From: Odiellus spinosus | Taxonomy: Eukaryota > Arthropoda > Arachnida > Opiliones > Phalangiidae | Reading direction: 5' to 3' | Length of the DNA stretch: 64,000 bases | Assembly: GCA_963920705.1 (NCBI GenBank) | Contig: OY987237.1 | Location: 7,284,601 to 7,348,600 of the forward strand | Shown: positions 29,219-51,519 of the stretch, piece by piece | How the letters are laid out: each line of letters opens with the position of its first letter | How positions within the stretch are numbered: position 1 is the stretch's first letter | Translations under genes and position numbers: made by a program | Notes under the pieces: generated by a model | The model's input: only the letters and a program-made list of their open reading frames with translations | Databases searched by the model: none | Told to the model about the DNA's origin: nothing

Positions 29219-29549
29219 CCTTTACCAAGAATCCATTCAGGTTCCATAAGAATATGGGAGGGCCGTGATTCAATAACCATCCTCCCACACTTTGTAACAA
29301 AAGTTCGTCTGCTTCGAATCGATTTTTCAAGTAAGTCGCTCCTGACATTATATTATTAACCCGCGCCACTAACGACCTTGACATAATATTTTGGGTAATA
29401 AAAATGGAGCCGACCGAAAAAAGATCTAAGCGTACAAATGTTGCGAAAATTGCAGACGAACTTTTGTTACAAAGTTTGGGAGGATGGTACCAGAGGCTAA
29501 AGCTATGCTCCCATATTCTTATGGAACCTGAATGGATTCTTGCCTTTAC
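29219..29549. mobile_element. 317-bp element with 7-bp target duplication, copy 1
   Basis: Element 29226-29542, flanked by exact 7-bp direct repeats CCTTTAC (29219-29225 and 29543-29549). The ends CAAGAATCCATTCAGGTTCC... are perfect inverted repeats for 35 bp; after a non-matching gap, a second inverted block (CTTTGTAACAAAAGTTCGTC) continues the arms. The copy at 44990-45306 has the same length, inverted. No transposase is present. Seven-bp duplications are uncommon: hAT usually makes 8, and P-like or Dada-like elements may be candidates. Confidence 0.9.
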
Positions 29550-29737
29550 TTAAGCCAGTTGATTATGACATGTGATACGGATCGATTTCTCGCTGTCTTC
29601 CTCGTGAAAGTACTTAAATAATCCAGAAAGTTAATTTAGTTTTCATTCGAAGCTTATCGAAACATTATTAGCATTATTTTAATTAATATTATTTATTTTT
29701 AATATTATTACAAGTTATTCATCATGGTCAATTTAGT
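29550..29737. mobile_element. Fragment sharing the GTGAAAGTACTTAA block
   Basis: TCGTGAAAGTACTTAAATAATCCAGA near 29603 resembles the internal block of the AGTGAGGCTGTCA family at 11068 and 14900. Only this block is recognisable. Confidence 0.35.
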
Positions 29738-29948
29738 GACAAACAAATATTAAACTAGAAACAAATTTCAAATTTACCAAGAAATAGGCTTAGCTGGATT
29801 CATGGAGATATCCTGATTTCCCCATATACGGACTATCGACCAATGGCATTGGTCGATGACCCTTATACGAAGAATGCGGGATCTCCTTGAATCCAGCTAA
29901 GCCTATTTTCTGGGTAAGTTTTAAATTTATTTCAAGATTAATATTTAT
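29738..29948. mobile_element. TTAA foldback MITE, family 1, both termini lost
   Basis: ACAAATATTAAACTAGAAAC, AATAGGCTTAGCTGGATTC and the mirrored GAATCCAGCTAAGCCTATTT with CTGGGTAAGTTTTAAATTTA are family 1 arms. Neither AGGGAGAATGC terminus is present. The right edge abuts a CAGGGTTG terminus, so a later insertion probably removed or displaced it. Confidence 0.75.
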
Positions 29949-30830
29949 TCAGGGTTGCCGCAGGGAATTTCAAAATTGGTCTAAAAAGTCAGGGAATTTC
30001 AAATTGGTCTAAAAATAAAATTGTAGAATCTCATAATATGGATTCAATTAGACCAGGGAAGCTTCCATAAATATGTATAAAAAATTATTATATGGGATCA
30101 GAGGCTTCAAAACATTTATGGAAAGTCCCTATTGAGAAAAGCACGTTTTTTACGAATACTTTCTCACAGTATACAGTTTAAACAGAACACCTATTTTTGG
30201 GGAGAAGTGATTCACGCAAGGAAGAGCTCCTACCCGAATCTAGCAACCTTGAACTTCCCATACAACACAATAAGTGGTTTATTTGGACAGTTATTGAAGA
30301 ATAAAAAAGGTTTTACACATGAAATAGCATATTACCAGAGGTATATAATAACCCCCTTCGGGGGGAAGTATGAAAGGTAGGCAAAATCGACGAACAACAA
30401 GTGCCCGGCGTAAATCGCGGCGGATCGACACACCGCTTTACTCCCAAAAAATAGTTACACCATTTTGAACCTCACTAAATTTTCCCTAAGCACACTTCCG
30501 GAACTTGCGAGCTGAAGTCAACCTTCGACTCCAATTTAGCAAACAGCCTGACTCCTGAGACAGGAAGTTCTAAACACAAATCGAGCCGTCTTGTTTATAC
30601 AAAGACCATTTACTAGAGTAGCGACATTGAGAAGTCCAGCGCGAGCTAGTGGCCTAGATAGTCAGCAGCGGGCTCTTCTTGTTCGTGATTTTTAGCATTG
30701 GTAGTATAGGGGGCTTTCATACTTCCCCCCGAAGGGGGTTATTATATACCTCTGATATTACTACCAATTTAAACCTTTAAATTGGTCAGGGGAAAACGGT
30801 GAAGATGGTCAGGGAAAACAAAGCCTGGAT
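29949..30830. mobile_element. GTCAGGGAA-type element interrupted by another transposon
   Basis: Starts CAGGGTTGCCGCAGGGAATT near 29953 and has two TTGGTCTAAAA units; after the nested element (30336-30754) the same kind of sequence resumes (AAATTGGTCAGGGGAAAAC, GGTCAGGGAAAAC). The right terminus is unclear. The 82-residue plus frame 30132-30380 crosses the nested element border and is not a gene. Confidence 0.6.
30329..30761. mobile_element. 419-bp nested element with 7-bp target duplication
   Basis: Element 30336-30754, flanked by exact ATATTAC (30329-30335 and 30755-30761). The terminal inverted repeat is 41 bp and perfect, starting CAGAGGTATATAATAACCCC; it contains the mini-hairpin CCCCCTTCGGGGG. 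The interior is more GC-rich than the surroundings and has no coding frame. It interrupts a GTCAGGGAA-type element, so it inserted later; perfect arms also point to youth. Confidence 0.9.
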
Positions 30831-32009
30831 ACCCAAAAATAATAATCTGACTTCACTCCAAAACAACCCCTAGAATTTACGCCAAATAAGCAGAATAGCA
30901 TTATCCTATCCCAAAAATATATTATTTCTCAAATATTTCTAATAAGGAGAAACAAACAAACCACTCTATTTATAACAAAAATGACGATAAACCGTGTCTC
31001 CTTTACCGTATTGTAAAACTTTATTTAAGAATTCTCACTAAATTCTACATTAATTCTATTTAAAAATATTTTATATTTACACCATGTACAACTGTATAGT
31101 TTTAAAAATTCTATATTTGACGAAAAACCCGTACATTGTACCAATTGCGATTGAGGCATAGTAGGTATACTACTAGCCTCCCCCCCAATCTTCCCCGATC
31201 GGCGATTGACGAAAGTTCAAACAAAGCCGCGTGAACGTTCCGTGTTACTGTATTTTCGTTGGGCCCGACATTAAATCTTAATTAAATCGCGTTTAAGCTA
31301 TCGGTGATGTGCGGATTTAACAACAAAAAGAAACCTAAGATATCCAAGATTAATGGTATGACAAAATTAGCGCCTCGCGTTTCCGTAATATTACGACAAG
31401 ATGAGATTTTTGACTGTAGTGTTGTCGTTTTAGGCTTAGCGATTGTCTCTTTACGCCTAGAGACCGGCAAGGCGGCGACCTCCCCGGCGCTCGCGGCTCG
31501 CTAAACGCCGCGTAACTCAATTAGGACAAATTTTAATTTCCTTTAAATCGGATTCAAATCGAGTGTTCATGTTTGGATTTTATTGTCAAAATGCGTCTGA
31601 ACTATGGGACTAAAGGATACCGAAACATTTGAGTCCAGATTTTGGGTGAGTTTTGTTTTAACTGCTATTTTTCAGGTAGTGTTTTATGTCATGTTGGTGA
31701 CTCGTGTTAGGCTTAGCCCTTCTCGGCTACAACGCATTGTTTTAGTAGCCATTTTCATCTAACGAAGGAGTAATGGAGAGGGAGATAGTCGGGGGGGAGG
31801 GGGAAGTTTAAATTTTGCCCGCGGCGAAAGCTTGTAGAGTCAAAGTGCTGACAATGCTTTCAACTTTAAACCAGCGAAGTTGGAAAGGGGGTATTGGAAA
31901 CATTTTTAAGCATTTAATTGACTGTATTTAGAACCCTTAAATAAAACTTTTAAAGGGTTTATATTTCGGGTTCAAATTAAACGTGGTTGTAAATTGAAAA
32001 CTTAAATAC
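30831..32009. other. Intergenic DNA with a CG-rich patch
   Basis: 31180-31520 is locally rich in CG and CpG (GGCGGCGACCTCCCCGGCGC near 31470) and is open in both directions (plus 31304-31504, minus 31282-31470). It could be a promoter-associated patch or first exon, but I see no known domain or good splice sites. The rest is unassigned. Confidence 0.35.
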
Positions 32010-32425
32010 GATACGTTTGGGGGTTTTAATGAAATTTGTTTGGGGGTTTTAATGAAATTTGTTTGGGGTTTTTAATGAAATTTGTTTGGGGGTTTTAATG
32101 AAATTTGTTTGGGGGTTTTAATGAAATTTGTTTAGGGTATTTAATTAAAATCCCCCCAAACGTATTTAATTAAAATACGTTTGGGGGATTTTAATTAAAT
32201 ACGTTGGGGGGATTTTAATTAAATACGTTGGGGGGATTTTAATTAAATACGTTGGGGGGATTTTAATTAAATATGTATGGGGGATTTTAATTAAATATGT
32301 ATGGGGGATTTTAATTAAATACGTTTGGGGGATTTTAAATACGTTTGGGGGATTTTAAATACGTTTGGGGGATTTTAATGAAATACGTTTGGGGGATTTT
32401 AATGAAATACGTTTGGGGGATTGTT
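32010..32425. repeat. GTTTGGGGG-TTTTAAT minisatellite with an internal inversion
   Basis: Units of about 22-24 bp. First block: TTTGGGGGTTTTAATGAAAT (about 32015-32130). Second block: ACGTTKGGGGGATTTTAATT (about 32175-32420). At the junction one unit is inverted, giving a 66-bp near-perfect palindrome at 32137-32202. Confidence 0.9.
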
Positions 32426-33248
32426 CCTCGCTTTACCTACTCTAAACCATGGTCAGACTCACTCAGGGGGGGGTAAGATTACCTCATCGAAATAGATTTT
32501 TATTGGCTGGCAATATCACACTGTTTTCAGCGGGCAGATGCAGAAAGGCCCGTCTTGCCCTAGACTTCTGTTGTTTTTATTATTCCCTTGTGGAGGTGTT
32601 TTGAGCGAACTTGATCAAATAGGTGAAGAATTCGGTATGCCCCAATAGCTAGGCACCCAGGGGCAGGTGCTTTTTTCCAACCTTTAATCCATCCCTGTCC
32701 TTGAATTAAAATCACAAGCTATTCCTCTTCACATTCCCTTTAAAAAGATCCTGTCTCGATCGATATTCAAGATGTTACTGCCTTGGGTTTCATCAGGGTT
32801 CATACAAACCTGGAAAATTTGGAAATCTCGTAGAAATAAATGAAAGGCTAAAAATGTAAGGAAATGTTTTTTTTTTTCATATTTGGTCTTAATTAATTAA
32901 ACCACTCCCAATGTTATAACTCCGTTTTATTGACAGATGTAAGTAGTTTGGGATTATTTCTCACAGTCCCCCTTACCAGTTTTTGGTTGGGTTTATCCGA
33001 ATATATTCGGTGGTCTTGGACCAAAATCACGTGACATTTTTGTCAAACATTGTGTTTTCATCTACTGTCAACCTTCTAATTTTGAAAGAAATACTCAAAA
33101 ATGGCCCAGGGGTTATTTTTCGGGAATTACTGAACCGTGGAAGCCCTGTAATAAGGGCCTAACCAAAAAAATGTTTTGTTATTTAAACCTTATATACGAC
33201 CGAGTGAAGGAACCATTTTTACCCATTTTTACAACCTTTTGGGACTAC

Positions 33249-33289
<41 letters not shown>

Positions 33290-33905
33290 TTGTGCCCAGC
33301 ACAGCGGCGTTATTTTTATTTTTTTTTTAACATCGTAAAAAAAATGTTATATTTTTCTTTGGTCTTTACCGACACAGTTTTTACGACGTATATACCCTAG
33401 TCAAGCGACTTAAGACTCTTGAAAAATAAGTTTCTAACATCAAATTGGTCGGGTGTAAACCTAAAATTGCGTGGAACCAGAAATTTAAAAAAAAAAAAAA
33501 AAAATTAAAACCTGGTTTGGAAAATTGGTCTGTAATACAAAATGAACATAAATTTTATACTTAAAGAGTTAAGGTAGTCTTCCAAAAGTAGATGTTTATA
33601 TCCTTCAGAAATCAAAATTTATAAATATATACTTTATATATTATATATATTTATTTATTAATTTATTTTTAAATCTATAATTAGAACTTCAGCTTGAAGG
33701 TATCTCGCGAAAGAGTTGAATTCGGCAATCTCTTAATGACGTCACAATCAAACTAAGGCTGCTTTCAGTAACAAATAGCCACTTGACCATAATGCGATGA
33801 CGTAGTATTGCGGGGAATTTTTATCTTAAAATTTCGAAAATGACGAATATAAATCATTTATTTTTACTGTCGCTGTAATTTTCTTTTCTCTTCTGCATAT
33901 GAATG
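32426..33905. other. Intergenic DNA with poly-A run and short elements
   Basis: A33 at 33252-33284. ACATTCCCTTTAA near 32735 is an orphan TTAA-AGGGA terminus. TGACGTCA occurs at 33737-33744. No gene is supported. Confidence 0.45.
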
Positions 33906-34376
33906 CCTATCAGGGTTCGTACACGACCTGGAAAACCTGGAAAAGTCAGGGAGTTTGGAAATTGGCCCAAAACGTCAGGGAAAAGTCAGGGAATTTGGAA
34001 AGTAACCCCAAAGGTCAGGGAAAAGTCAGGGAATTTGAAAATAGCCCAAATGGTCAGAGAAAATAAATATTTTGATGTGTCAAGGAACTGTTTATGATTG
34101 GTTTACCAATCAGTTGTAACGTTATTATTATAAACTGAAAATATTTGCCTAAAGATTCAAATTGTTTCTCATATTCTGAGTAAACTATTCTGACCCCGAT
34201 TGATAAACTATGTCAAATAAAATGTGGGAATTGCCAGCAGCTCGCTCGTAAGAATATATTCATGAAAAAAAAAAAAAAAGTTAAAATTGGTCAGGGAAAT
34301 TATTTGGAAATGGTCAGGGAAAACCTGGGAAAGTCAGGGAAATTAACTTCCAAAATTTTGTGCGAACCCTGCCTAT
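33906..34376. mobile_element. CAGGGTTCG-ended element (hAT-like), most complete copy
   Basis: Element 33911-34371: left CAGGGTTCGTACACGACC, right TTTTGTGCGAACCCTG, inverted for about 13 bp with one change. CCTAT flanks both sides (33906-33910, 34372-34376), a 5-bp candidate duplication. CAGGG ends are typical of hAT elements, but hAT normally duplicates 8 bp, so the assignment is open. Inside are three GTCAGGGAAAAGTCAGGGAA units and the conserved tail also seen at 28130 and 58390. Confidence 0.75.
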
Positions 34377-35339
34377 ATATTTTTTAATCTTTCCGTTTAG
34401 AGCCCGTGAAAAATTAGACACAACTTCGTTTTAATGAAAACTATAATCACTACTGTTAATTACCATTTTTTTGAACGATTACGTAAAAATTAAGTAAACT
34501 AAATTTCGACACTTTTTATAAGGAAGGAAAATATAATCTTTTATGTTGTTTTTATTATTAATTTTCTTATTACTAGCTTAAGATTAAGGAGATCTAATAC
34601 GAATCAAGTTAAAACTGTAGCCCTATTTGTAAGTACTTTAAATGTAAAATAGGCTAAACTGTAATTACATTAACCGATAGTTTCAACTACGGTCAAAGCT
34701 TAATATGAAAAATATGGGGTAGAAATAATCTTGTAGGGGCGATCTTTCGGTCTAATTAGAGTCGTCTGTCTTAGTTCGAATCAACCCGAATTTGCGATAT
34801 ATTCGAAGCTATTCTCCCGGCTTTACCTTCCTAATTTTTTTGGATTAGAAACTAAGGAGTAAGTGATTGGGTTTAGCTTTGTATCTGCTGTTATTTCAAA
34901 CTGATATAAATTTTTTCGAGAGAAGTTTATTACGTTACTCTAACTTAGGCGTAATGTTACGTTATGTTAAATCTCGTAGGAAATGAAAGTAGTTTTTGTA
35001 AAAGAGATATTGTATGAACTGGGACTAGTACCCAGAACTGAAAATATTTGGCCCCTGAGGCCTCGAGCGTAAAAATTATACACACAAAAGCTGGAAAGAG
35101 AATTCGGCGAAAATAGAAGTTAAGGTGTACATTGTAAGGTTCCGAATATAACCACACTCTTCAAGAGAGGATCAAAAATTTTCGAAAATTTGTGGTTAAA
35201 TCCTGAAAAGGATTGGAGATAATTCCACATTTATAATAAAAATTCATTAACCCTTTATTAACTTTGGTGAATAATATAATAATTACTAATAATATTATTA
35301 AATTTATTACTAGCAACAAAAACCTTGTAAAATCACGTG
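34377..35339. other. Intergenic DNA, no gene seen
   Basis: Minus frames at 34957-35157 and 35161-35343 are hydrophobic by AT bias and carry no motif. Nothing else is recognised. Confidence 0.45.
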
Positions 35340-35830
35340 ACATTTAAAGTTTCAGAAAGTTCCACAACTATCCAGAACTTCCCAGAATTAATATTCAGAA
35401 TGATCTAAATTTTCAAGAAAGTTCTATTTTTCTAGAATTTTCCAGAACTTTCTACATTTTTCTAGGACTTTCCTAGATCTTTCTAGTCTTTCCTAGAATT
35501 TAAAGATTTTTCTAGACTTTTCTAGAATTTTACAGATTTTCTAGAATTTTCTAGAATTTTACAGATTTTTCTAGAATTTTCTAGAATTTAAAGATTTTTC
35601 TAGACTTTTCTAGAATTTAAAGATTTTTCTAGACTTTCCTAGAATTTAAAAATCTTTCTAGACTTTCCTAGAATTTAAAAATCTTTCTAGACTTTCCTAG
35701 AATTTAAAAATCTTTCTAGACTTTCCTAGAATTTTACAGATTTTTCTAGACTTTTCTAGAATTTTACAGATTTTTCTAGACTTTTCTAGAATTTTACAGA
35801 TTTTTCTAGACTTTCTAGAATTTAAAGTGT
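35340..35830. repeat. TTTCTAGAATTT / TTCTAGACTTT minisatellite
   Basis: About 18 imperfect units of roughly 29-33 bp made of TTTCTAGACTTTTCTAGAAT and TTACAGATT or TAAAGATT. The left start uses AGAACTTCCAGAA-like words, so the array grew from a locally palindromic TCTAGA core. Confidence 0.85.
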
Positions 35831-36554
35831 TAGAATAGATATATTTTTATTACAATTTCTTACAATTATAAATGATTTAAATTAATAATACCACCACTGA
35901 ATCAATTACGAACATTTCTAAGAACGCAAACTTTGGTTAAAGTTTAAGTTCAATTATAACTATAATTGAAATATTATATTATTCTTAACACTGTCCCTTT
36001 AAAAAAAGTTGTAGAGAAAAATTATTTCATATAATGATTAGGATCGCTTCTCTTAGATGGTTTAAACCATATTCGGATTTAAAACCTGGATTATTCGAAG
36101 ACGGTAGCCGGTCATAGCTCAACAAAAAATAGAATAAGAGTACCTTGAAGAGGCCAATATAATAATTTATATATTTCCCTCCCCCCCCCGGTCTTTCTAA
36201 GGTACGTAGAATTAAGTTTACATAAGACGAGTTAGTTAGGAGATTATGAAAAGTTAGTGCCAATGAAATTTGTCATTAGGAATATCTTAATAATTTAGAT
36301 GTTTCTGATGGTGCCTCTTTTTGAAAAGGGGTGTGTTTTTCAAAGCATCCCGTATACGTCTCTTTAAACGTAAAATTTTCTGATTATTTTTAATTGACAA
36401 AATATGTAGTTTTTAGGGAAATTGAATGATGATTGTTTACCCTTTTTTATGAAGCTTTTATTAAAGCAATTATTATTTAAAATATAATTGTTAAGGCTTA
36501 TACATACTAAAAAACTTGGGAAATATCAACAGGAAAAAAATACACTGGAAAACA
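35831..36554. other. Intergenic DNA with orphan TTAA-AGGGA terminus
   Basis: CACTGTCCCTTTAA near 35990 is a single right-type terminus. A C-run (CCCTCCCCCCCCCC) lies near 36178. No gene is seen. Confidence 0.45.
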
Positions 36555-36652
36555 AAATTATCAAGACCAATTTGGTCTTGATAATTTGACCAAAAATATC
36601 CAATAAATTGACCAAAACGAAATTATTCGAAATTTGCAAAATATTTCGTTTT
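36555..36652. repeat. Two adjacent palindromes
   Basis: 36555-36587 is a 33-bp palindrome: AAATTATCAAGACCAA, T, and its exact inverse. 36614-36623 (AAAACGAAAT) pairs with 36643-36652 (ATTTCGTTTT). These may be the arms of a small foldback element whose right limit is unclear. Confidence 0.75.
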
Positions 36653-36731
36653 CATTTTGACTTTTTTAACCAATTTGTAGTTTAATCACACTCAACTACT
36701 TGTTTCATTATTATTTTTAAAAAATATGATC

Positions 36732-36746
36732 CTGGTTCGAATCCAG
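36732..36746 (+). other. tRNA T-arm-like / B-box sequence
   Basis: CTGGTTCGAATCCAG forms the 4-bp stem and 7-nt loop of a tRNA T arm, and GGTTCGAATCC is a perfect pol III B box. No tRNA body can be folded upstream, so this is probably the relic of a tRNA-derived SINE or a chance match. The 25-bp AT array starts just after it. Confidence 0.4.
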
Positions 36747-36749
36747 TCG

Positions 36750-38075
36750 TATTTATTTTAATATAATTTTATTATACTTATTTTACTATAATTTTATAAT
36801 AATTTTAATATAATTTTATTACAATTATTTTAATATAATTTTATTATATTTATTTTAATATAATTTTATTATATTTATTTTAATATAATTTTATTATATT
36901 TATTTTAATATAATTTTATTATATTTATTTTATTATATTTATTTTGATATAAATTTATTATATTTATTTTGATATACATTTATTATATTTATTTCGATAT
37001 AAATTTATTATATTTATTTTAATATAAATTTATTATATTTATTTTAATATAAATTTATTATATTTATTTTAATATAAATTTATTATATTTATTTTAATAT
37101 AAATTTATTATATTTATTTTAATATAAATTTATTATATTTATTTTAATATAAATTTATTATATTTATTTTAATATAAATTTATTATATTTATTTCGATAT
37201 AAATTTATTATATTTATTTCGATATAAATTTATTATATTTATTTCGATATAAATTTATTATATTTATTTCGATATAAATTTATTATATTTATTTCGATAT
37301 AAATTTATTATATTTATTTCGATATAAATTATATTTATTTCGATATAAATTATATTTATTTCGATATAAATTATATTTATTTCGATATAAATTATATTTA
37401 TTTCGATATAAATTATATTTATTTCGATATAAATTATATTTATTTCGATATAAATTATATTTATTTCGATATAAATTTATTATATTTATTTCGATATAAA
37501 TTTATTATATTTATTTCGATATAAATTTATTATATTTATTTCGATATAAATTTATTATATTTATTTCGATATAAATTTATTATATTTATTTCGATATAAA
37601 TTTATTATATTTATTTCGATATAAATTTATTATATTTATTTCGATATAAATTTATTATATTTATTTCGATATAAATTTATTATATTTATTTCGATATAAA
37701 TTTATTATATTTATTTCGATATAAATTTATATTTATTTCGATATAAATTTATATTTATTTCGATATAAATTTATATTTATTTCGATATAAATTTATATTT
37801 ATTTCGATATAAATTTATTATATTTATTTCGATATAAATTTATTATATTTATTTCGATATAAATTTATTATATTTATTTCGATATAAATTTATTATATTT
37901 ATTTCGATATAAATTTATTATATTTATTTCGATATAAATTTATTGTATTTATTTCGATATAAATTTATTATATTTATTTCGATATAAATTTATTTTAATA
38001 TATATTTATTATATTTATTTTAATATATATTTATTTTTATATATATTTATTATATTTATTTTAATATCAATGTTA
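36750..38075. repeat. 25-bp AT minisatellite (TATTTATTTCGATATAAATT)
   Basis: About 55 units, mostly 25 bp, TATTTATTTYGATATAAATTTATTA in form, with stretches of 21-bp length variants (about 37320-37470 and 37730-37800). Early units have TTTTAATATAA, later ones TTTCGATATAA, and the last return to TTTTAATAT, so the CG-containing variant spread in the middle. Confidence 0.95.
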
Positions 38076-38877
38076 TTCATTTACATTTATTAGTGCTGAT
38101 AGATTAGGGTTAGACTACTATCTTTGAAAAATAGGTCAATTGAAATGAACACATAAAAATGATAAAAAATATTTAAATTTATTAATTATATATATTTTAA
38201 TATATTTTTTTTTTTTAAATATATTATATTTAATTTTAGCTAACAATAAACCCTAAAACAAGTATTAAGTGGTGGGACTAGAAAACCCATTGATTAATGA
38301 TCTTCAAGATTTTTTTTTTTTTTTTTTTTTTTTCCTTGATCACCTTTGATTTATTAATTTTCTTTCATTAATTTTTTTCGAATTTCGGCATCGCAAAAGC
38401 TATTGTCATTATTGTCAGAATAAAGGTTAGGTGGATGAATATATAATGTTAACTTCATATGTATGAAAGTAGATCATCAGAAATATCTCCCACTTTTTCG
38501 TAATCCTTATCTGTCTTCTTACAAAACAATACACTGTTAGCCTTTTAAATTTAATTGATTTAAATTTTTATCTTCAATTTTGAATCTTTTTTACATCAGA
38601 ATTAATTTATATTTAATTAGCCTTGGAGGATTATTAATTAAATACAATTTTTAAATCCAATGTTTTATGACAGTTTGGGGTCAATTAAGGTCAACCTATT
38701 CAATTAAGGCTTAAATTAATGAATCATGAAATGCATGAAAGTTTTGAGAGTATATAATAATTAAGATAATTCATAAATGTTCAAATTCAAAAATCATTAA
38801 TTAGCCTAAATTCATAATTAACGTTTTATATTATCAATTTTGATTAGGAGTTAACTTGAACTCTGACACCTATATAA
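38076..38877. other. Intergenic DNA with poly-T run
   Basis: T run of about 23 bp near 38311-38333. No coding frame or known repeat. Confidence 0.5.
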
Positions 38878-39195
38878 TTAAAGGGAGAATGCATTCCTTA
38901 TTTTATAAATAGGCCTAATCCCGAGCCTAATCCACTAGCGAAAAAATTTACGAACAGATATTAAACTATAAATAAATTTAAAACTAACCCGGAAAATAGG
39001 CTTAGCGGGATTCATGGAGATTCTGATTTCCTCGCGTATAAGGTCTAGCGACCAATCGAACGCGATTGTGAGTCTCGTGGTCGTGGAGATCTCGCGTGAA
39101 CGACGGGCCATCCCTGATTGGTCGTTAGACCTTACACGGAGGCAATTCAGGATCTCCATGAATCCCGCTAAGCCTATTTTCTGGGTAAGTTTGAT
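38878..39195. mobile_element. TTAA foldback MITE, family 1, right terminus lost
   Basis: TTAA at 38878-38881, AGGGAGAATGC, then both foldback arms: GGCTTAGCGGGATTCATGGA and TCCATGAATCCCGCTAAGCC. The right part ends at CTGGGTAAGTTT without the outer terminus. The arms are cleaner here than in most copies. Frames on both strands (38935-39208) result from the foldback. Confidence 0.85.
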
Positions 39196-39645
39196 TAAAC
39201 CCGTTTAAAACCAAAAATAATTTTCAAGAAACATTTCCTTAGCACTTTAAATTGATTTTGATTAAGATTGAAAATTATAAAACCAGAATAAAATATAATA
39301 TAAATTTAATTCCTACTAATTAAACAACTATAACCACGATATAGTAATTAAGGTTTGTATAAAAACCCTTAATTAAACTAATTAAAAATACATTTATACC
39401 TTTTAATTACATTTAATTCTACCGCTATGCATTTTAAACGTACGAAATTTAGTTGTATTAAGCTAAACATAACATTTTATTATAAAACCCTATTGACATT
39501 TTTTCGAGATTTCCTGGATTGCATGAGAGCCATGTTTTAAGTTTGTCTCTGGTGGTGACGTCGCTAGGCGATATGTGCTGAAAAGTAACACCAGGAGGCG
39601 CCCGAAGCGTGTCCCTCTCTTCAACGCCAATGTATTAAAGTATGA
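39196..39645. other. Intergenic DNA, no gene seen
   Basis: Nothing recognised; GC-richer patch near 39540-39620 without motifs. Confidence 0.45.
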
Positions 39646-40276
39646 TTAAAGGGGGAATGAAATGTTACTCTTTGAAATATGACTTTTAACTGACAATATT
39701 ATCAACATGCTGTTAAAATACCACTTTATCGAATATATTTAAAAAAATTACATAATTTATTCAAAAAAGATCAGACGAAGTTTTAGATGAAAGGTCAACA
39801 TTTATGTGATTTATTCCCAGCCAATCATGTAATTTAAGAACGATCCCGAGCGCTAGCGTTCCCACGCGTACCCCTGTTGTTTCGATAAAAGCGAAATTTG
39901 CGTGAAATAAGAAAATTAGTCATTGTATTCACTTTTGACTGAAATAATGAATCAAGGAACTCCACCCAGAAACATTCCCTTATAAGGCTACTTTGGCATT
40001 ACAGTTGTACCTAGACTGCCCCTCCTTGCATATCTACCGTTAGGAGACGTACAAATCGGGATTTTTGAAACTAACCCTATCAGACATGGGCAAACGAGAC
40101 CCGGGAATAATAGACAATCCATTGAAACAGACTTAGCGTCTGTTTCAATGGATTGCCTAACTCCTTTTCTAACGCGCAAATGGTCTATACTTGTCCAAAT
40201 TGGTTTCGGTTGCTTACAGTTCAAAAAAATATGTATTAATTTTCGATTATTTTTGTTCATTTCGTTCTCCCTTTAA
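39646..40276. mobile_element. TTAA element, family 3 (AGGGRGAAYGAAATG ends)
   Basis: TTAA at 39646-39649 and 40273-40276. Left AGGGGGAATGAAATG, right CATTTCGTTCTCCCT; 623 bp. It carries a perfect 18-bp-arm palindrome at 40115-40155 and a segment (about 40022-40110) resembling the minus strand of the 50k element. That segment is open in the plus frame and reads AYLPLGDVQIGIFETNPIRH. The element as a whole looks non-coding. Confidence 0.8.
40115..40155. repeat. Perfect hairpin, 18-bp arms
   Basis: CAATCCATTGAAACAGAC (40115-40132) pairs exactly with GTCTGTTTCAATGGATTG (40138-40155) around TTAGC. It lies within the family 3 element and could form a stable RNA stem if transcribed. Confidence 0.9.
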
Positions 40277-41049: not shown

Positions 41050-41440
41050 AATTAAGGAATCCTTATTTGATCGAATCCCATATGATCTATAATTAAAGAA
41101 ACCATTTGATCGAGACCAAAATAATCGATAATTAAGATATCCATTTGATCGAATCCCAAATGATCGATAAATAAGGAATCCATTTGGTCAAACATTAAGT
41201 AATCCATTTGATCGAGACCCAAATGATCGATAATTAAGGTATCCATTTGATCGAATCCCAAATGATCGATAATTAAGGTTTCCATTTGATCGAATCCCAA
41301 ATGATCGATAATTAAGGTATCCATTTGATCGATTCCCAAATGATCGATAATTAAGGTTTCCATTTGATCGAATCCCATATGATCTATAATTAAGGAATCT
41401 TATTTTATCGAATCCCATATGATATATAATTAAGAAATTA
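41050..41440. repeat. 39-bp minisatellite (CCATTTGATCGAATCCCAAA)
   Basis: About nine to ten units of CCATTTGATCGAATCCCAAATGATCGATAATTAAGGTAT form, with a 39-bp period (starts at 41243 and 41282). The words TTTGATCGA and CCAAATGATCGA match the GATCGAC repeat at 16250. The 13-residue minus-frame repeat (MGFDQMETLIIDH) follows from the unit length. Confidence 0.9.
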
Positions 41441-41545
41441 CTTTGTTGAAATCAACCGATGGAGTTCGAAACGATTCCGAACGATTTAAATATCGGTGTT
41501 TGATTTTATCGATTAAAATCGATTGGTATCGATAGTGTCAACGTT
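41441..41545. mobile_element. Fragment of the AGCTACGTTCACACTA-type element
   Basis: CGATTTAAATATCGGTGTTTGATTTTA and a GATAGTGTCAACGTTGCTTT end resemble the right part of 2251-2534 (GATTTAAATATCGGTTTGAT, GTAGTGTGACCATAGCTTT). The left part is missing. Confidence 0.45.
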
Positions 41546-42612
41546 GCTTTGGCCAAATTTCTACCCGAACCAACACGAATTGATTTCTCGCCTTGATATG
41601 GTAGCAACTTCTATCTAAAGCGCTTTTAGGTGTGTGATACGACACGATGCTTAGGAAGAATACGTAAGAGAGTCTCTGAGCGTCCGGTGCAATAGCCTGA
41701 TTTTTCAAATCTGAACATTTAAAATTAAAACGCTGGTAAAAAAAGACTATAAGGTATTAAGGATACGAAGTCATTCTCGCGAAATAATCTCCTCCAATGA
41801 GATGGAGAGGAGGAAGAACGAATTAAAAATGCTCAACTCGTCGGACCAATGCATCAAATCTGGGCGACTTGCCTTTAGTATATTGCATCTATAACCGAAT
41901 TTAGACCTAAAACGGAAAGTTTTTAAAGACACTCGCGATGAGAGGCAACCTGGGTTCCACGCGGTATATTCCTAGTTAGATAGAGAGAGGTGGGGTATCC
42001 ACTCTTCGACACGACATATATCCAGAAATACATTTTCAAAACATAGAAATTAGCGCAACTTAATACTATCAGCAAAGGTCCGGGTAAATGTACCCGCAGA
42101 CTCTGATTCGAAACACTCTAGCGGTCGCATACGGTGTAAATAATGAACGGAGGAAACGACACTCTTCGGAGAAATTACCTTTAAGATAGGTACGCGTTGT
42201 TAATTCGGAGAAGCCCAAAGAATTAGAATCGTAATTTCTAGTTTTATAAAATCATTTCTGATTTTACCAGCGGGTTTAATTATGAGAGACCAAAAAAAAA
42301 AAAAAAAAAAAAAAAACTCCGCGCTCTCCGGCTAAAGAAAACGGGGCGTGTTATTATCGGAGTCTAAACTTAATACAATTTTACCTCTATAGTTATTATT
42401 ACGTATTATATTGTCGTTCGAAAGCCGAGCATCACCTAGCCTGCCCCCGAGCCACGATTTGCCCAGCCAAACTAAATCATTGCCGCTTCGAAAAGGATTC
42501 GAAAAACCCGAAGAAAAACCGGTTGGCTAACCTTATAAAGAGTCCCTTCTAAGGCCGCAACTCCCTATGTAGTCAAAAAACACGCGCGAAGAATTTACAA
42601 AAGATTCGAAAT
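41546..42612. other. Intergenic DNA with poly-A run
   Basis: A run of about 27 bp near 42291-42317, followed by CTCCGCGCTCTCCGG, the minus-strand version of the GAGCGCGGAG word beside the T43 run at 3928. No gene is supported. Confidence 0.45.
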
Positions 42613-43867
42613 TTAAAGGGGAAATGAAATGTATGAAAATAATCTAAATGGATTTTATTTGTAGAATCCAACCGTGATAATAATACACGCAACAAAAACC
42701 TAAAACATTATAGGAAAATAACAACTTTTCCATCGATTTATAGGAAGTTATAGGAAAAATATAGAATTACTATAATCAAAACTATAATCACTTCATTTTT
42801 ATAGTTTTTGAGCACCATTTCTATTTAAAAATATTAGTTCCTTTTTTTAAGTTTTTAATCGTCACATTTATATTATAAACATGACATGGAAAAGTCAGGG
42901 AAATTGAAAATGGGTCAAAAAAGGTCAAGGAAAGGTTGGGAAAAGTCGTGGGAAAATGGTGATGATTTGTAAAAGTTATTTAGTGAGTAATATTTTTAGC
43001 TGAAATTGTTTTCCAATTTCGAGTAGACTACCGACGATAGGTTGTATTGAAAAATGGTCTGGGAGTTTATTGAAAAATGGTCTGGGAGTTTATTGAAAAA
43101 TGGTCTGGGAGTTTATTGAAAAATGGTCTGGGAGTTTATTGAAAAATGGTCTGGGAGTTTATTGAAAAATGGTCTGGGAGTTTATTGAAAAATGGTCAGG
43201 GAGTTTATTGAAAAATGGTCGGGGAGTTTATTGAAAAATGGTCGGGGAGTTTATTGAAAAATGGTCGGGGAGTTTATTGTAAAATGGTCGGGGAGTTTAT
43301 TGAAAAATGGTCGGGGAGTTTATTGAAAAATGGTCGGGGAGTTTATTGAAAAATGGTCGGGGAGTTTATTGAAAAATGGTCGGGGAGTTTATTGAAAAAT
43401 GGTCGGGGAGTTTATTGAAAAATGGTCGGGGAGTTTATTGAAAAATGGTCGGGGAGTTTATTGTAAAATGGTCGGGGAGTTTATTGTAAAATGGTCGGGG
43501 AGTTTATTGTAAAATGGTCGGGGAGTTTATTGTAAAATGGTCGGGGAGTTTATTGAAAAATGGTCGGGGAGTTTATTGAAAAATGGTCGGGGAGTTTATT
43601 GAAAAATGGTCGGGGAGTTTATTGAAAAATGGTCGGGGAGTTTATTGAAAAATGGTCGGGGAGTTTATTGAAAAATGGTCGGGGAATTTATTGAAAAATG
43701 GTCGGGAATTTATGGTAAAATATGGTCGGGGGAATTTATTGAAAAATGGTCAGTGACATTTTGAAAAATCAAGGAACTATATATAATAATTACTTTTATG
43801 AAGTGATTTTTCCTAGTTTCCAAAATTAAAAATCAAAATACTATTTTGTTTGTCACTTTCCCTTTAT
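42613..43867. mobile_element. TTAA-bordered element holding a 23-bp array (family 4, tentative)
   Basis: TTAA at 42613-42616 then AGGGGAAATGAAATG; at the right GTCACTTTCCCT then TTAT. The inverted ends agree only partly, so the border call is tentative. Inside (from 42880) is GTCAGGGAA-type sequence and the 23-bp array at 43035-43760, so two layers of elements may be present. Confidence 0.4.
43035..43760. repeat. 23-bp minisatellite (TTGAAAAATGGTCGGGGAGT)
   Basis: About 30 units of TTTATTGAAAAATGGTCGGGGAG. The first six or so read GGTCTGGGAG, then GGTCGGGGAG with a run of TTGTAAAATGG variants, so successive local expansions can be read from left to right. The unit resembles the GGTCAGGGA word of the hAT-like elements, and the array is followed by ATCAAGGAACT, also found after the internal repeats at 27990 and 34080. 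Confidence 0.95.
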
Positions 43868-44353
43868 ATTAAGGCCTAAAAAATATATGTCGGATATCAT
43901 GTAATATTATAGATGATTCTGTAATTCGCATGCAATATTATATATGTTATGGGCCGCGAATGGACACGTGTTTTTTCACGATGATGAATCGAATTTGGCA
44001 ATAGCCGGGAATTGCGCCTTTTTCTTCGCGCCAAAATAATTTTTCACCAAAAAAACCGGCCGGAAATTGACTCGAATTGAGACGTTAAAAGTTTTAATAT
44101 TAATCTATCGAACCGCCTCTATCACGTGATTACGCTTTCTTAGATTTTTTTAGGCATAGCTAAGCCTAGTATTCTAAATATATTTTTGTTTGTTATTGCA
44201 AACGACAACCCAAGACTTTGCATTTCCGTAATTTTGTATTTTACCAACTCTTGTATATATTTGAACTCGATTGGTATTCTTACTTCATTTTTCTATAATT
44301 GCTGGCAGCTTGCTATCTTGATAAATATTAATGCGTACCATAGATGTCAGATC
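43868..44353. other. Intergenic DNA, no gene supported
   Basis: A 68-residue plus frame (44186-44392) ends inside the next MITE and has no motif. Nothing else is seen. Confidence 0.45.
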
Positions 44354-44583
44354 TTAAAGGGAGAATGCAACCTAGCAACGATTATGGTTTAAATAGGCCT
44401 AATCCACTAGTGAAAAAAATTACGAACAAATATTAAACTAGAAATACATTTCAAACTTACCCGGAAAATAGGCTTAGCGGGATTCATGGAGATCAGCTGA
44501 TTTCCTCGCTTATAAGGGCTAGTGACCTATGGAACGCGATTGTAAATCTCGTGGAGATCTCGCGTGAACTCCACCTCGAGACT
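44354..44583 (+). mobile_element. TTAA foldback MITE, family 1, right-truncated copy
   Basis: TTAA at 44354-44357, AGGGAGAATGCAACCTAG, then the left arm (AAAATAGGCTTAGCGGGATT, ATGGAGATCAGCTGATTTCC) and the centre GTAAATCTCGTGGAGATCTC. The right arm is absent. Confidence 0.8.
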
Positions 44584-44982
44584 GGAAGTCACGTGTCTGA
44601 CAATGTATCCTTATTTGGTTCAAATAATATGCAAATTAATCTAATTCTATAAAATATGACGTATTCCGCGCATATTTCAAAAAAGGCGCGAATTTGAAAT
44701 CTCTTAAGCCTTGACTAAATTCTTGAAAATTGGTTAAAAATTAATTTGTATCTTTTAGTGTCGCCCTTACGCTATAGTTGTACTGCTTTAAATTTGCAAG
44801 ATAGTTTCCAACCTTATCTATAGAGTTGCCAAAACAGGAATTTTTAAAATAATGGCTGAAGAACACTTCTTCTTTTTTAAAGGAAAGAATTTCGGTTCGT
44901 GGTCTGAACTCGCGTAGTTTCAACATTCCAATGAAGTGCGCCGCTAGTTTAAAGCCTTGTTCGCGCGAAAAATATCTTTTTG
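44584..44982. other. Intergenic DNA, no gene supported
   Basis: The 83-residue minus frame at 44741-44992 has no known domain and overlaps the next element. Nothing else is seen. Confidence 0.4.
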
Positions 44983-45313
44983 GTACCACCAAGAATCCAT
45001 TCAGGTTCCATAAGAATATGGGAGCATAGCTTTAGCCTCTGGTACCATCCTCCCAAACTTTGTAACAAAAGTTCGTCTGCAATTTTCGCAACATTTGAAC
45101 GCTTAGATCTTTTTTAGGTCGGCTCCATTTTTATTACCCAAAATATTATGTCAAGGTCGTTAGTGGCGCGGGTTAATAATATAATGTCAGGAGCGATTTA
45201 CTTGAAAAATCGATTCGAAGCAGACGAACTTTTGCTACAAAGTTTGGGAGGATGGTTATTGAATCGAGGCCCTCCCATATTCTTATGGAACCTGAATGGA
45301 TTCTTGGTACCAC
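44983..45313. mobile_element. 317-bp element with 7-bp target duplication, copy 2 (inverted)
   Basis: Element 44990-45306, flanked by exact GTACCAC (44983-44989, 45307-45313). It is the reverse complement of 29226-29542, with very few differences (for example TTGCTACAAAG for TTGTTACAAAG, AAAAAAGATC length). Same length, same CAAGAATCCATTCAGG ends. Two close copies with intact duplications show recent activity. Confidence 0.95.
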
Positions 45314-45719
45314 TATAAATAAATAAACCAGCAAAAATAGATCACTGAATAATATTTTTTCGAACTACAATTCAATGCCCTACAATAACTGAATTTTCCA
45401 ATTGATTTTGACAATTTATAAAATATACTTTTATTCTTTTTAAATACGATTCGTTACTATTATTATGTAAATACATAATTTTATAGTTATGCGTGTCTGT
45501 CCGTAGGGAACGTTAAATGCGCGCGCAAAGATAGATACGATATGTAGTAAACTCCGCTTGAGTTTGAGATTCAAGTCACGTCCTTCATTACAAACGTGGA
45601 TTAAGTCTAACAAGGCCTATTTTAATTAATCAATGGTTTAGAGATTAAAGAATTGTAGATAATAACGTTTTCGCCATGTTTAACGTAGAAAGAATTGGAA
45701 GTAAAAGAAATTAATTTTA
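45314..45719. other. Intergenic DNA, no gene seen
   Basis: AT-rich, nothing recognised. Confidence 0.45.
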
Positions 45720-45975
45720 ATATATTTCGAATATGATTATGCCACGTAACTAATAAGTAATTAATATTAAAAAACCTCATTTGCCAAGTAACTAATTAAT
45801 ATTAAAAATACGTTATTTCCCACGTAACTAATAACTAATTAATATTAAAACGCCATTTGTGACGTAACTAATTTAAAAAAGTAATTTTCCACTTGACTAA
45901 TAATTTTTAATTAATATAAAAAAAATTGCATTTGCCTAGTAACTAATAACTAATTAGTATTTATCTTAACTAATT
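45720..45975. repeat. Diverged minisatellite (ACGTAACTAATAACTAATTA)
   Basis: Five units of about 45-55 bp with GTAACTAATAACTAATTAAT, ATTAAAA and CATTTGCC or TTTCCCAC. Units vary in length and sequence, so the array is old. Confidence 0.8.
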
Positions 45976-46589
45976 TGCAACACGCACAAAACTACAAATT
46001 ATCTCAATAGTTTGTTTGTTTAAACCGATTATTCTTCAATTCGAATAATCATTTTCTAAAACCGAATATTGACCGATTTTAATCGAATAACTGAATAAGT
46101 TTTCGAGTTGGGATTTACTAATTCACTTTTTACCATAATTATAAATGAACCCTCATTACCATTTTAAAATAATTCAATGTTGTATCGTGTGAACCGGGCT
46201 TTAAAAATGAGGGGGTTAGCTTGTACCGTGGAGGGGGATCTCAATCTACGAGCCGTATTTTTTATTTTACTCCTATTAATCACTCGAACCTTCGTGAGTT
46301 AAACGATGTTAAAATGCCACTATCAAACGAAACAATAACTAAAATCCTGAAGAATCTTTTTCTAAAACATTTTGCTTTGTATTAAGATCTTGTGTATAGA
46401 AAACGTTCGCAACGAAATGAATCGCGTGACTTCTATGCAGATATATTCGTAAAGTTTAACAAGTCACGTGTTTTGACTGTAAGTTTCACGCGCGTGACGT
46501 CATTAGGAAATAGGGTAATTAAACTTGCGTCGTTTACTGCGTGAAATTCAGTTATATATTTGATATATCAATATTTAATCATCTTTTTA
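45976..46589. other. Intergenic DNA with a CRE-like site
   Basis: TGACGTCA at 46495-46502 follows CACGCGCG; CACGTG near 46466. No gene is seen. Confidence 0.45.
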
Positions 46590-46948
46590 ATAGGCCTAAT
46601 ATCCACCAGTAAACAAATATCAAACTCGAAATAAATTTAAAACTTACCCTGAAAATAGGCTTAGCGAGATTCATGGAGATCAGCTGATTTCCTCGCGTAT
46701 AAGGTCTAGCGACCAATCGAACGCGATTGTAAGTCTCGTGGAGATCTCGCGTGAACGACGGTCCTTCGCTGATTGGTCGCTAGACCTTACACGGAGGCAA
46801 TTCAGCTGATCTCCATGAATCCCGCTAAGCCTATTTTTGGGGTTAAGCTTTAAATTTATTTCTAGTTCAATATTTGTTTTGTAAACTTTTTACATGTGAA
46901 TTAGGCCTATTTAAACGATAAAAAAAATAGGCTGCATTCTCCCTTTAA
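46590..46948. mobile_element. TTAA foldback MITE, family 1, left terminus lost
   Basis: Starts in AATAGGCCTAAT and keeps both arms: ATGGAGATCAGCTGATTTCC and the inverse AATTCAGCTGATCTCCATGA, plus AAGGTCTAGCGACCAATCGA and GATTGGTCGCTAGACCTTAC. The right end GCTGCATTCTCCCT is followed by TTAA at 46945-46948. This copy has one of the best conserved foldbacks. Confidence 0.9.
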
Positions 46949-47452
46949 CAAAAATACGATATTAGCAAAAAATTACTTGTTTTATTTATAATTCCGTTTA
47001 ATATCGGAAGATTCACTAATATTGGCACGCGCTTAATGTAAATTGGGAGTATCCCTTCGGAGTTCATTGCGCCCAGATGTCAGTGCACCATTCTATCTCT
47101 AACAGCTCCGCTGCCTCTTATAACGTAACAACGGGGTCTTCTCATCTTTTGCTCAGTAATATTTCTTCCATAGTTCTTCAGTTTTTTTTTTGTCTCGATC
47201 TTTCGCGCCTAAAACATTTCGTATCAATCTCACCCTCGGTGGTCCACGAATCTTATTTCGGAAACTATATAGGTACTAGTACAACTTAGGTTTCAAATAC
47301 TACCTATTTAAAGATTATAAAGATACCCGAATTTAATTGCGCGGATTAATTTTCTTTTTTGATTACATACGGTCAATTTAATGTTGATTAAATTTAATGG
47401 TTAAAGGAGTGACTTTTCGCGCTCAAATATAAGCCTGATACGCTTAATATAA
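46949..47452. other. Intergenic DNA, no gene supported
   Basis: The 70-residue plus frame at 47077-47289 is serine-rich with no motif. Nothing else is recognised. Confidence 0.45.
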
Positions 47453-48596
47453 TAAGTCTAAATTGAGGGCAAGTTAAGTCTAAATTGAGGGCAAGTTAAG
47501 TCTAAATTGAGGGCAAGTTAAGTCTAAATTGAGGGCAAGTTAAGTCTAAATTGAGGGCAAGTTAAGTCTAAATTGAGGGCAAGTTAAGTCTAAATTGAGG
47601 GCAAGTTAAGTCTAAATTGAGGGCAAGTTAAGTCTAAATTGAGGGCAAGTTAAGTCTAAATTGAGGGCAAGTTAAGTCTAAATTGAGGGCAAGTTAAGTC
47701 TAAATTGAGGGCAAGTTAAGTCTAAATTGAGGGCAAGTTAAGTCTAAATTGAGGGCAAGTTAAGTCTAAATTGAGGGCAAGTTAAGTCTAAATTGAGGGC
47801 AAGTTAAGTCTAAATTGAGGGCAAGTTAAGTCTAAATTGAGGGCAAGTTAAGTCTAAATTGAGGGCAAGTTAAGTCTAAATTGAGGGCAAGTTAAGTCTA
47901 AATTGAGGGCAAGTTAAGTCTAAATTGAGGGCAAGTTAAGTCTAAATTGAGGGCAAGTTAAGTCTAAATTGAGGGCAAGTTAAGTCTAAATTGAGGGCAA
48001 GTTAAGTCTAAATTGAGGGCAAGTTAAGTCTAAATTGAGGGCAAGTTAAGTCTAAATTGAGGGCAAGTTAAGTCTAAATTGAGGGCAAGTTAAGTCTAAA
48101 TTGAGGGCAAGTTAAGTCTAAATTGAGGGCAAGTTAAGTCTAAATTGAGGGCAAGTTAAGTCTAAATTGAGGGCAAGTTAAGTCTAAATTGAGGGCAAGT
48201 TAAGTCTAAATTGAGGGCAAGTTAAGTCTAAATTGAGGGCAAGTTAAGTCTAAATTGAGGGCAAGTTAAGTCTAAATTGAGGGCAAGTTAAGTCTAAATT
48301 GAGGGCAAGTTAAGTCTAAATTGAGGGCAAGTTAAGTCTAAATTGAGGGCAAGTTAAGTCTAAATTGAGGGCAAGTTAAGTCTAAATTGAGGGCAAGTTA
48401 AGTCTAAATTGAGGGCAAGTTAAGTCTAAATTGAGGGCAAGTTAAGTCTAAATTGAGGGCAAGTTAAGTCTAAATTGAGGGCAAGTTAAGTCTAAATTGA
48501 GGGCAAGTTAAGTCTAAATTGAGGGCAAGTTAAGTCTAAATTGAGGGCAAGTTAAGTCTAAATTGAGGGCAAGTTAAGTCTAAATTGAGGGCAAGT
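47453..48596. repeat. 22-bp minisatellite, 52 perfect copies
   Basis: 1144 bp, exactly 52 units of TAAGTCTAAATTGAGGGCAA plus GT. I see no substitution between the first and last complete units. A single degenerate unit follows (TAAGTCTGAAATGAGGGCA) and then TAAGTCTAAAAT. Every other array in the window carries variants, so this is the youngest or the most strongly homogenised. Period 22 is not a multiple of 3, so no repeat ORF arises. Confidence 0.97.
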
Positions 48597-49090
48597 TAAG
48601 TCTGAAATGAGGGCATCCAAGCTAAGTCTAAAATATAGAAAAATCTTGCTATGTTTCGCTTCTATTGAACTTTGGTCAAATTAATACTAGCTTGAATAAT
48701 ATCGTAATTTTCTACCTTTTTGGGATTAAATTTTTTTATTATTTTATTTTACACCTTTGTGCACTGTAGAGACAATTTTTTTCTCTACCGATCGAGTTAG
48801 TTTCGGACGAATAAATTTTTTCTTCAAATTTTATTCGTCGTAATTTGATATCCACGATGGGAAAACTTCCAAAGTTTGCCTAAAGATTTTTTACGCAACC
48901 GAACAAAAAGTTCGATAACTTTTTTACATCAGTTTAAAGGTAAAGTGAAACGTACCTAAAAATATGTTCGTCTTAATTGGAATTAGGCCTTTACTTTTTA
49001 ATTATAATTGAATTAAACAGATGAAAATATAAAATATATTGGTATATTTATCCGATATATGGAACGTAATTAACGGTGATTTTCGCACGA
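48597..49090. other. Intergenic DNA, no gene seen
   Basis: TTTAAAGGTAAAGTGAAACG near 48935 may be a decayed TTAA-AGGGA left end, pairing weakly with CAGTCTCCCTTTAA at 49437-49450. No gene is seen. Confidence 0.4.
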
Positions 49091-49376
49091 AAAGTAGTTG
49101 ACTTGATCTGGATTAAGTACTTTTACTAGAAATACCGCGCAAAAGCGAACTTATCAGAACGGACGAGAGTCAACCGTAGGCTCTACAATACCCAGGCGAC
49201 CATAGTAAGATGACGTAGAATTGTGGAAAATTAATATTTTAAGAATTTCGAAAATGGCGGTAATTTTTTAAGTAACATTGTATATATATTTCGAATAGTT
49301 TTTTAACGATCTTTCCGAAAATGACACTAACGTTTCATTTCGAGTTCATGAAAAACCCGTGAAAGCTTCACTTTGA
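49091..49376 (-). mobile_element. AGTGAGGCTGTCA-type TTAA element, minus-strand copy
   Basis: The minus-strand block at 49095-49140 (CTGGATTAAGTACTTTTACT on plus) matches 14873-14927. On the right, TTTTTTAACGATCTTTCCGA and GAGTTCATGAAAAACCCGTG lead to GAAAGCTTCACTTTGA, a decayed terminus. The opposite end is not clear. Confidence 0.6.
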
Positions 49377-49990
49377 CTTCATGGAAATCGTTATTGGAGA
49401 ATTAGGGTTAGAAAGTTAAGCCTATTAAGGCATTTTTCAGTCTCCCTTTAACTTCTTGAAAAACCTTTGTCGATTTTCAGCGAGCATTATTTTAAAAAAT
49501 AGGTTAGGCTTAGCTTCGCGGGTACATTATCTCGCCGTATCGGGGTTAAGGCCCGAAAGGGTAGCGTCCTCCGTAATTCCTGGCCCGGTATCGAATTTTA
49601 GGAGGCATTTTGCTTCGATGCCTCGCCAATTTCAATATTATCGAAGAGGAGATAAAATTCTGCGCTATATTCGATAAAGTTTTCGTAGTCAAAAGGAGTT
49701 GACATTAAAGCCAAAGTTGTAGCGGACTTTTACCACGATGTTAAACCCGGTATAGATCTAGGCGAGTAGAGCCAAGTAACGAAGAATAAATAACTGATAC
49801 GTGAAAGATAAAGAACCCAATCGGCCAATAAAAAACCACGTAAGAAAAGAAAGAATTTTTAACATCCTCGTGAGAATTCTACGAGTGTGTTCAAGGGATA
49901 AGGAAGACACTCAGGTCACAAATTTCTTACGCGATAAAACCTTAAGAGCATTAAAATTGGTACGTTGAAACTTTGAAGCCGTTCTAAGCG
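49377..49990. other. Intergenic DNA, no gene supported
   Basis: The 73-residue plus frame at 49456-49677 lies in a somewhat GC-richer patch but has no motif. CAGTCTCCCTTTAA at about 49437 is an orphan TTAA-AGGGA end. Confidence 0.4.
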
Positions 49991-50211
49991 TAGTTTCCAA
50001 GGCGTCGATTAAGCCTAGTTTCCAAGGCGTCGATTAAGCCTAGTTTCCAAGGCGCCGATTAAGCCTAGTTTCCAAGGCGCCGATTAAGCCTAGTTTCCAA
50101 GGCGCCGATTAAGCCTAGTTTCCAAGGCGCCGATTAAGCCTAGTTTCCAAGTCGCCGATTAAGCCTAGTTTCCAAGGCGCCGATTAAGCCTAGTTTCCAA
50201 GGCGTCGATTA
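49991..50211. repeat. 25-bp minisatellite (TAGTTTCCAAGGCGYCGATT)
   Basis: Nine units of TAGTTTCCAAGGCGCCGATT plus AAGCC. The outer units carry GGCGTCG and the central ones GGCGCCG; one has AGTCGCCG. This symmetric pattern suggests the GGCGCCG variant multiplied in the middle. Confidence 0.95.
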
Positions 50212-50391
50212 TGACGGGCTCATTTGTCGCTGACCCATGAATGCGAAAAAATTGGAGCCACTCCCTTTTTCTTAAAATTTAAATTTCTCTTAAAAAAAAA
50301 AAACTCGAATTTCAAATCAACTTTCCGAGAAAACTGTCGAATATTTTTAAATGTAATTTTATATAGACGCTTTTTAGACCAAGAAGTTTCG

Positions 50392-50740
50392 ACTGAATCA
50401 GAAGTAGATGAAACCCTCCTTTGAAGTCTATTACTCCCTGGTCTTGCCTACCCCTCTCTGTATGGGTTAGTTTCAAAAAGCGCGATTCGTACGCCTCCTA
50501 ACGGTAGATATTTTCGGAGCGGGAGTTCGTCGAGCGAATATTTATAGTTGCCTTGGAGTTCGTCAAAAAAACGTCGTCGTTTGTGGAGAGAGAGAATTTC
50601 CAATTTTGCGTAGACAGGGGGTATGAAGTAGGACCCCTCCGATCTCATAACATTTGGAACTTTACCCATACAGAGAGGCGCTATATCGAACATTAGAGTA
50701 GTAGACTTCAAAGGAGGGTTTCATCTACTTCTGACTGAAT
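50392..50740. mobile_element. 335-bp element with 7-bp target duplication
   Basis: Element 50399-50733, flanked by exact ACTGAAT (50392-50398 and 50734-50740). The ends CAGAAGTAGATGAAACCCTC... are perfect inverted repeats for 32 bp, then continue with one mismatch. The minus strand next to the left end (about 50420-50515) resembles the segment at 40022-40110. An 87-residue minus frame spans the interior (50448-50711); it ends with the YLPLGGVRIALFETNPYREG stretch but I cannot identify it. Confidence 0.9.
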
Positions 50741-51500: not shown

Positions 51501-51519
51501 ATATGTATTATAGTCCTGA

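Follow-up and report, generated by a model that had tools for sequence, protein, structure and literature searches.

Short inverted-repeat elements with 7-bp target duplications in a harvestman genome and their probable place in the P superfamily

Which transposase moved the short elements with long inverted repeats that lie in one 64,000-nucleotide stretch of the genome of the harvestman Odiellus spinosus? The stretch, hereafter the window, covers positions 7,284,601 to 7,348,600 of contig OY987237.1 (G000:C15:7284601-7348600 in our numbering) in a genome of 443 Mb and 286 contigs. It holds four such insertions from three families, A, B and C, each bordered by a 7-bp duplication of its target. 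A sequence-only reading of the window had regarded this length as unusual and had proposed that a single transposase, either P-like, Dada-like or of an undescribed lineage, mobilised all three families. We found that A, B and C, together with a fourth family, D, are most probably non-autonomous miniature inverted-repeat transposable elements (MITEs) of the P superfamily and of its 7-bp type, because this genome also contains P families whose insertions carry 7-bp duplications at a site of the same type.

Family A is present twice in the window. Its first copy (317 bp, 29226..29542, plus strand) has 35-bp perfect terminal inverted repeats, CAAGAATCC..., as well as a second, inner inverted repeat (29276-29312 / 29452-29488), and it lies between two copies of CCTTTAC (29219..29225 and 29543..29549). 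The second copy (317 bp, 44990..45306, minus strand), whose orientation opposite to that of the first was read from the sequence, lies between two copies of GTACCAC (44983..44989 and 45307..45313). The family B element (419 bp, 30336..30754, plus strand), with 41-bp perfect inverted repeats, CAGAGGTATATAATAACCCCCTTCGGGGGG..., is flanked by ATATTAC (30329..30335 and 30755..30761), and the family C element (335 bp, 50399..50733, plus strand), with 32-bp perfect inverted repeats, CAGAAGTAG..., is flanked by ACTGAAT (50392..50398 and 50734..50740). All four insertions abut an exact 7-bp repeat and none abuts a longer one (lengths of 1-12 were tried), when the chance that an exact 7-mer abuts a given pair of ends is ~6e-5 at equal base frequencies. 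The four perfect 7-bp repeats, the three element lengths and the inverted repeats of 32-41 bp that had been reported for this window were thus reproduced at the same positions. Just one frame of at least 120 amino acids (aa; stop-to-stop) overlaps any of the four elements, and it is 134 aa long. Within family A lies the start of a short open frame (MEPTEKRSKRTNVAKIADELLLQ..., 29404-29553) that extends through the right inverted repeat and is possibly a remnant of the coding start of a parent element, or a product of chance.

Near-identical copies of these elements are spread over many contigs. For family A, 40 copies including one from the window were scored (of 2271 first-look candidates), the others being 97-98% identical to it; for family B, 40 copies, again including the window copy, were scored (of 861 first-look candidates), the others being 98-99% identical. 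The mean difference from the majority sequence was 0.65% among 28 A copies and 0.64% among 29 B copies, figures that are biased low, as the copies used were those most like the query. Further copies or pieces of C were met in the fetched loci L099, L024 (two), L026, L028 and L002, and a decayed C fragment of 86 bp, 83% alike to C positions 28-113, lies in the window at 40030-40115. Family D, of 291-293 bp and with ends CAAGAAGGATC, was met in the flanks of fetched loci; three copies (L016 313-603, L022 2884-3176 and L025 2423-2713; ends CAAGAAGGATCAG) all carry 7-bp duplications, and a 24-base piece of the D end has 1591 exact occurrences in the genome. Older degenerate relatives of B, with ends like GGAGTTTATAAGAAACCCC...GGGGAAGTATGAAAGAGCCC, were also seen in L106 (from position 35), L107 and L008 (minus strand).

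The sequence-only reading had suggested that duplication lengths be tabulated over further copies, and the 7-bp length held. An exact 7-bp duplication borders 59 of 68 non-redundant A-D insertions with both ends intact, while eight of the 68 show one mismatch (four A and four B, with no C or D) and one, an A copy, shows three; duplications of 8 bp or longer were found at 0/68. By family, the exact duplications number 26/31 for A and 28/32 for B, in a sample that is not random, most of the A and B copies having been ranked most similar to the query, and 2/2 for C and 3/3 for D, figures that rest on two and three sites. C copies with damaged or missing ends (L002, L024 two, L026 and L028) were left out of the 68; among these uncounted copies, the duplication of L024a matches at 6/7 positions and the L026 copy sits in an AT microsatellite. 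A scan that took no account of family, made over the window and L001-L092 with overlapping loci included, covered 323 pairs of CA..TG ends in which 13 or more bases paired perfectly and gave a 7-bp duplication at 62, a 4-bp duplication at 7 and none at 254, with no other length of 4-12 bp. A relaxed scan gave 66 sevens versus 65 in a control that recaptures the duplication via shifted repeat registers, and was not used.

The targets of these insertions are alike not only in length but also in sequence. Both half-sites of the 59 exact A-D sites were counted. T was present at position +2 in 90/118 and at position -3 in 82/118, compared with 0.34 in the background, and A was preferred at the mirrored positions +6 and +10. 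Positions -2 and -4 were near background (T in 41/118 and 49/118). The preferred site is palindromic, and it can be written, for A-D and for the P copies described below, as TNN|NTNNNAN|NNA, with the duplicated 7 bp between the bars.

P-type transposons of the same genome behave in the same way. The P-type RNase H domain PF21787 was found at at least 150 places (150 scored of 386 first-look candidates), with matches in 0/14 control genomes, and four pairs of P copies are 99.9-100% identical over 3.3-3.4 kb. The population of P-type transposases is large and diverse, and some of its copies are apparently recent. Comparison of near-identical copies set the limits of three P families, namely F1 (5670 bp, 38-bp perfect ends CATAGACTAAG, an open frame of 856 aa), F2 (5725 bp, 33-bp ends CATGGACTC) and F3 (3777 bp, 31-bp ends CGGTGCCTCC, found by PF21787). 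The F1 frame, a predicted transposase, has a THAP domain, a TNP-like RNaseH_N domain and a GTP-binding insertion domain, and it matches the Drosophila P transposase 6p5a over 397 residues (query 386-782, E 5e-19); in the F2 open frame scanned, two of the three domains were found, i.e., the TNP-like RNaseH_N and the GTP-binding insertion domain. Every P copy with both ends read (9/9) carries an exact 7-bp duplication: GTCTGTC, ATATTAT, GATGTAT and GTCTAAG for the four F1 copies, ACTACAC for the one F2 copy, and CTTCAAA, GTATAAT, ATACAGA and GTAAAAC for the four F3 copies. Outside these nine are two F2 copies with one end read and a fourth P family, whose left end was placed from two copies and whose right end was not met within the 2.6 kb that were fetched. 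In the half-sites of the nine copies, T was present at -3 (or its mirror) in 13/18 (binomial p 0.0012) and at +2 in 14/18 (p 0.00021); the two same positions are preferred, in proportions close to those of the MITEs. One F2 copy was seen inserted inside a C-like element.

The P superfamily makes 7- or 8-bp duplications, and A-D show 7 bp. Of the three sources that the sequence-only reading had offered, a P-like one is best supported, as three P families of this genome share both the 7 bp and the site with A-D; Dada is disfavoured, and an undescribed lineage is not needed. For P elements, the steps of cutting and joining are established. Applied to A-D, a P transposase supplied from another place in the genome would pair both inverted ends and excise the element, and would then join it to a TNN|NTNNNAN|NNA target with a 7-bp stagger; repair of the gaps by the host would leave the 7-bp duplication. 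We infer that P transposases moved A-D by these steps.

Several results weigh against this assignment: the outcome of the search for a coding partner, the unlikeness of the ends, and the evidence for hAT elements that is given further below. Six genome pattern searches with the ends of A, B or C brought up no element that codes for a transposase; most single-end hits were judged from their listed letters and place alone, and partners diverged in other ways would escape such searches. The queries consisted of termini followed by bases foreign to the MITEs, at two depths for A and B and at one for C; they returned 35, 27 and 44 hits for B ends, 11 and 19 for A ends and 23 for C ends, every one of which was a single end, a MITE-sized pair, a copy altered by mutation or indel, an older relative or part of one segmental duplication. 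Nor was a recognisable A, B or C end found beside P transposases in 30 P loci with 1.5-kb flanks, or a coding element with D ends among the 100 listed of the 1591 places at which the D end was counted genome-wide. The sequence-only reading had advised looking for a full-length element with the same ends; none was found among the searches made, and no partner of any superfamily was seen in them. Apart from CA, the termini of F1-F3 (CATAGAC, CATGGAC and CGGTGCC) do not resemble those of A-D. Family A and the 3' end of F2 match over 14 bases, which may be due to chance.

Some candidate ends and pairs of ends were rejected. In L103, two D ends that span 5.4 kb looked like an autonomous element but are not bordered by a duplication, and no frame there exceeds 118 aa. 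On contig C14, two A ends that face each other across 17.6 kb belong to an inverted segmental duplication with identical flanks (L104/L105, C14:18983700-18984180 and C14:19001000-19001520), both arms of which hold the same cut-short A. B-like ends that continue into other bases (L106 and L107) are those of the older degenerate relatives, with no frame above 117 aa in the 2 kb beside each, and a B-like stretch beside P transposases (L060 and L061) is not a terminus, as both copies stay alike beyond it.

If A-D are P-superfamily MITEs, how many enzymes moved them? The somewhat favoured version of the P reading is that each family was moved by its own P lineage, which is now lost or diverged. F1, F2 and F3 make 7 bp in spite of their quite different ends, so the shared length needs no single enzyme, and the A-D ends have little more in common than CA and purines. 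Nothing direct stands against this version, although a partner lineage for A, B and C was not found in the pattern searches. The shared end type proposed earlier stood in part: CA plus purines is common to the families, but the likeness is weaker than implied, and F1, F2 and one hAT family also begin with CA. It is improbable that one P lineage mobilises several of the families, whose interiors are unrelated and whose inverted repeats differ. Little more than CA-purine ends and the geometry of paired ends would then have to serve for recognition, and the enzyme, as the mover of MITE families of very large size, would be unusually promiscuous for a P transposase.

As P-superfamily MITEs, A-D would be new families of an already known kind of transposon. 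The elements 1360 (Hoppel) and Galileo, which belong to the P superfamily in Drosophila, have CA ends. They resemble A-D in their 7-bp duplications at palindromic, GT..AC-like sites: 1360 makes 7 bp at 274/279 sites with a modal GTTNAAC, while the P element makes 8 bp (PMC3276498), and Galileo makes 7 bp at GTANTAC/GTATTAC within a 15-bp palindrome (PMC4168063, PMC2775673), with 8 bp at three copies in D. willistoni (PMC4168063). A 7-bp duplication is therefore not as unusual as the sequence-only reading had held, there being precedent in the P superfamily. The motif departs from the Drosophila motifs at the flanks: on their left side the latter read ANAGT or AANGT, whereas here T is preferred at -3 and A at +10. 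The P-MITEs of Anopheles gambiae are, like A-D, short, non-autonomous and present in many copies, with the duplication length of the P elements of their genome (PMC1562414); they differ in that this length is 8 bp and that their ends are common to named P subfamilies, whereas A-D have 7 bp and matching coding elements were not found. The Drosophila P element and zebrafish Pdre2 combine THAP with a P-type RNase H as F1 does, but both make 8 bp (for Pdre2, PMC10983969), whereas F1 makes 7 bp. P was already among the superfamilies of an insect MITE survey (PMC5199201), and no report of 7-bp P-MITEs or of families A-D was found in the titles and abstract openings listed from a partial set of the literature that did not include Repbase. 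The 7-bp P elements described from Drosophila are thus abundant in another genome, beside large families of short elements, which provides a natural panel for the study of what makes a P transposase set a stagger of 7 or of 8 bp and of how loose its recognition of ends is.

It is unlikely that A-D derive from a hAT lineage of the 7-bp type ('hAT7'). Ends of the CAGAGGTA type and the NTNNNAN site would suit hAT elements, in which CAGAGGT-like ends are common, and T at +2 fits hAT as well as P. Domains for hAT dimerisation are as frequent in this genome as the P domain (at least 150 places, scored of 220 first-look candidates). Families of hAT7 with 7-bp duplications exist in rust fungi (PMC12730594), and the hAT element hobo prefers GT..AC sites with T at +2 (PMC3276498). 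However, the usual hAT duplication is 8 bp (5-7 bp in special lineages), which A-D do not show; hAT7 lineages, whose transposase is of the hAT type, would fit a length of 7 bp. The single hAT copy delimited in this genome (n=1) has an 8-bp duplication, GGCTGAAA, and ends, CAGTGGCGCCGCC, unlike those of A-D. For a second hAT copy, no 5' end was found within the fetched stretch, and the ends read for this one hAT family, CAGTGGCG..., are not alike to A-D. The P elements of the same genome make 7 bp in 9/9 copies, and T at -3 and A at +10 are common to A-D and the P copies. The hAT explanation keeps a small probability because the 8-bp length was read here from one copy, 7-bp hAT families occur in rust fungi and hobo uses GT..AC sites.

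It is very unlikely that the three families are moved by an enzyme of the Dada or KDZ type, or of an undescribed superfamily, that makes 7-bp duplications. In favour of such a source, the pattern searches found no autonomous partner for A, B and C, Dada makes duplications of 6-7 bp and Kyakuja families of a fungus combine 7 bp with CA..TG ends. Against it, terminal inverted repeats are absent from Dada and from the Kyakuja families in question, and duplication length and site motif are already accounted for by the P elements found here. Dada in particular was rejected, as it inserts into small RNA genes and is without inverted repeats, whereas the elements here have repeats of 32-41 bp and searches of the window for tRNA genes and Rfam families gave no match; piggyBac and Mutator were rejected because a TTAA target and a 9-bp duplication, respectively, were not seen among the A-D insertions.

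Other features of the window and of the genome were noted along the way. Many minisatellite arrays with units of ~22-30 bp, mostly AT-rich, lie in the window, for example at 13275-14045, 23639-25097, 36750-38077, 47453-48615, 51501-53386 and 54126-55486. TTAGG/TCAGG repeats occur near the start of contig C1, and we take them to be an arthropod-type telomere. Short imperfect hairpins were seen in the window at 29763-29927, 38981-39192 and 46633-46856; the one at 29763 contains AATAGGCTTAGC, a stretch that is also present in other fetched loci.

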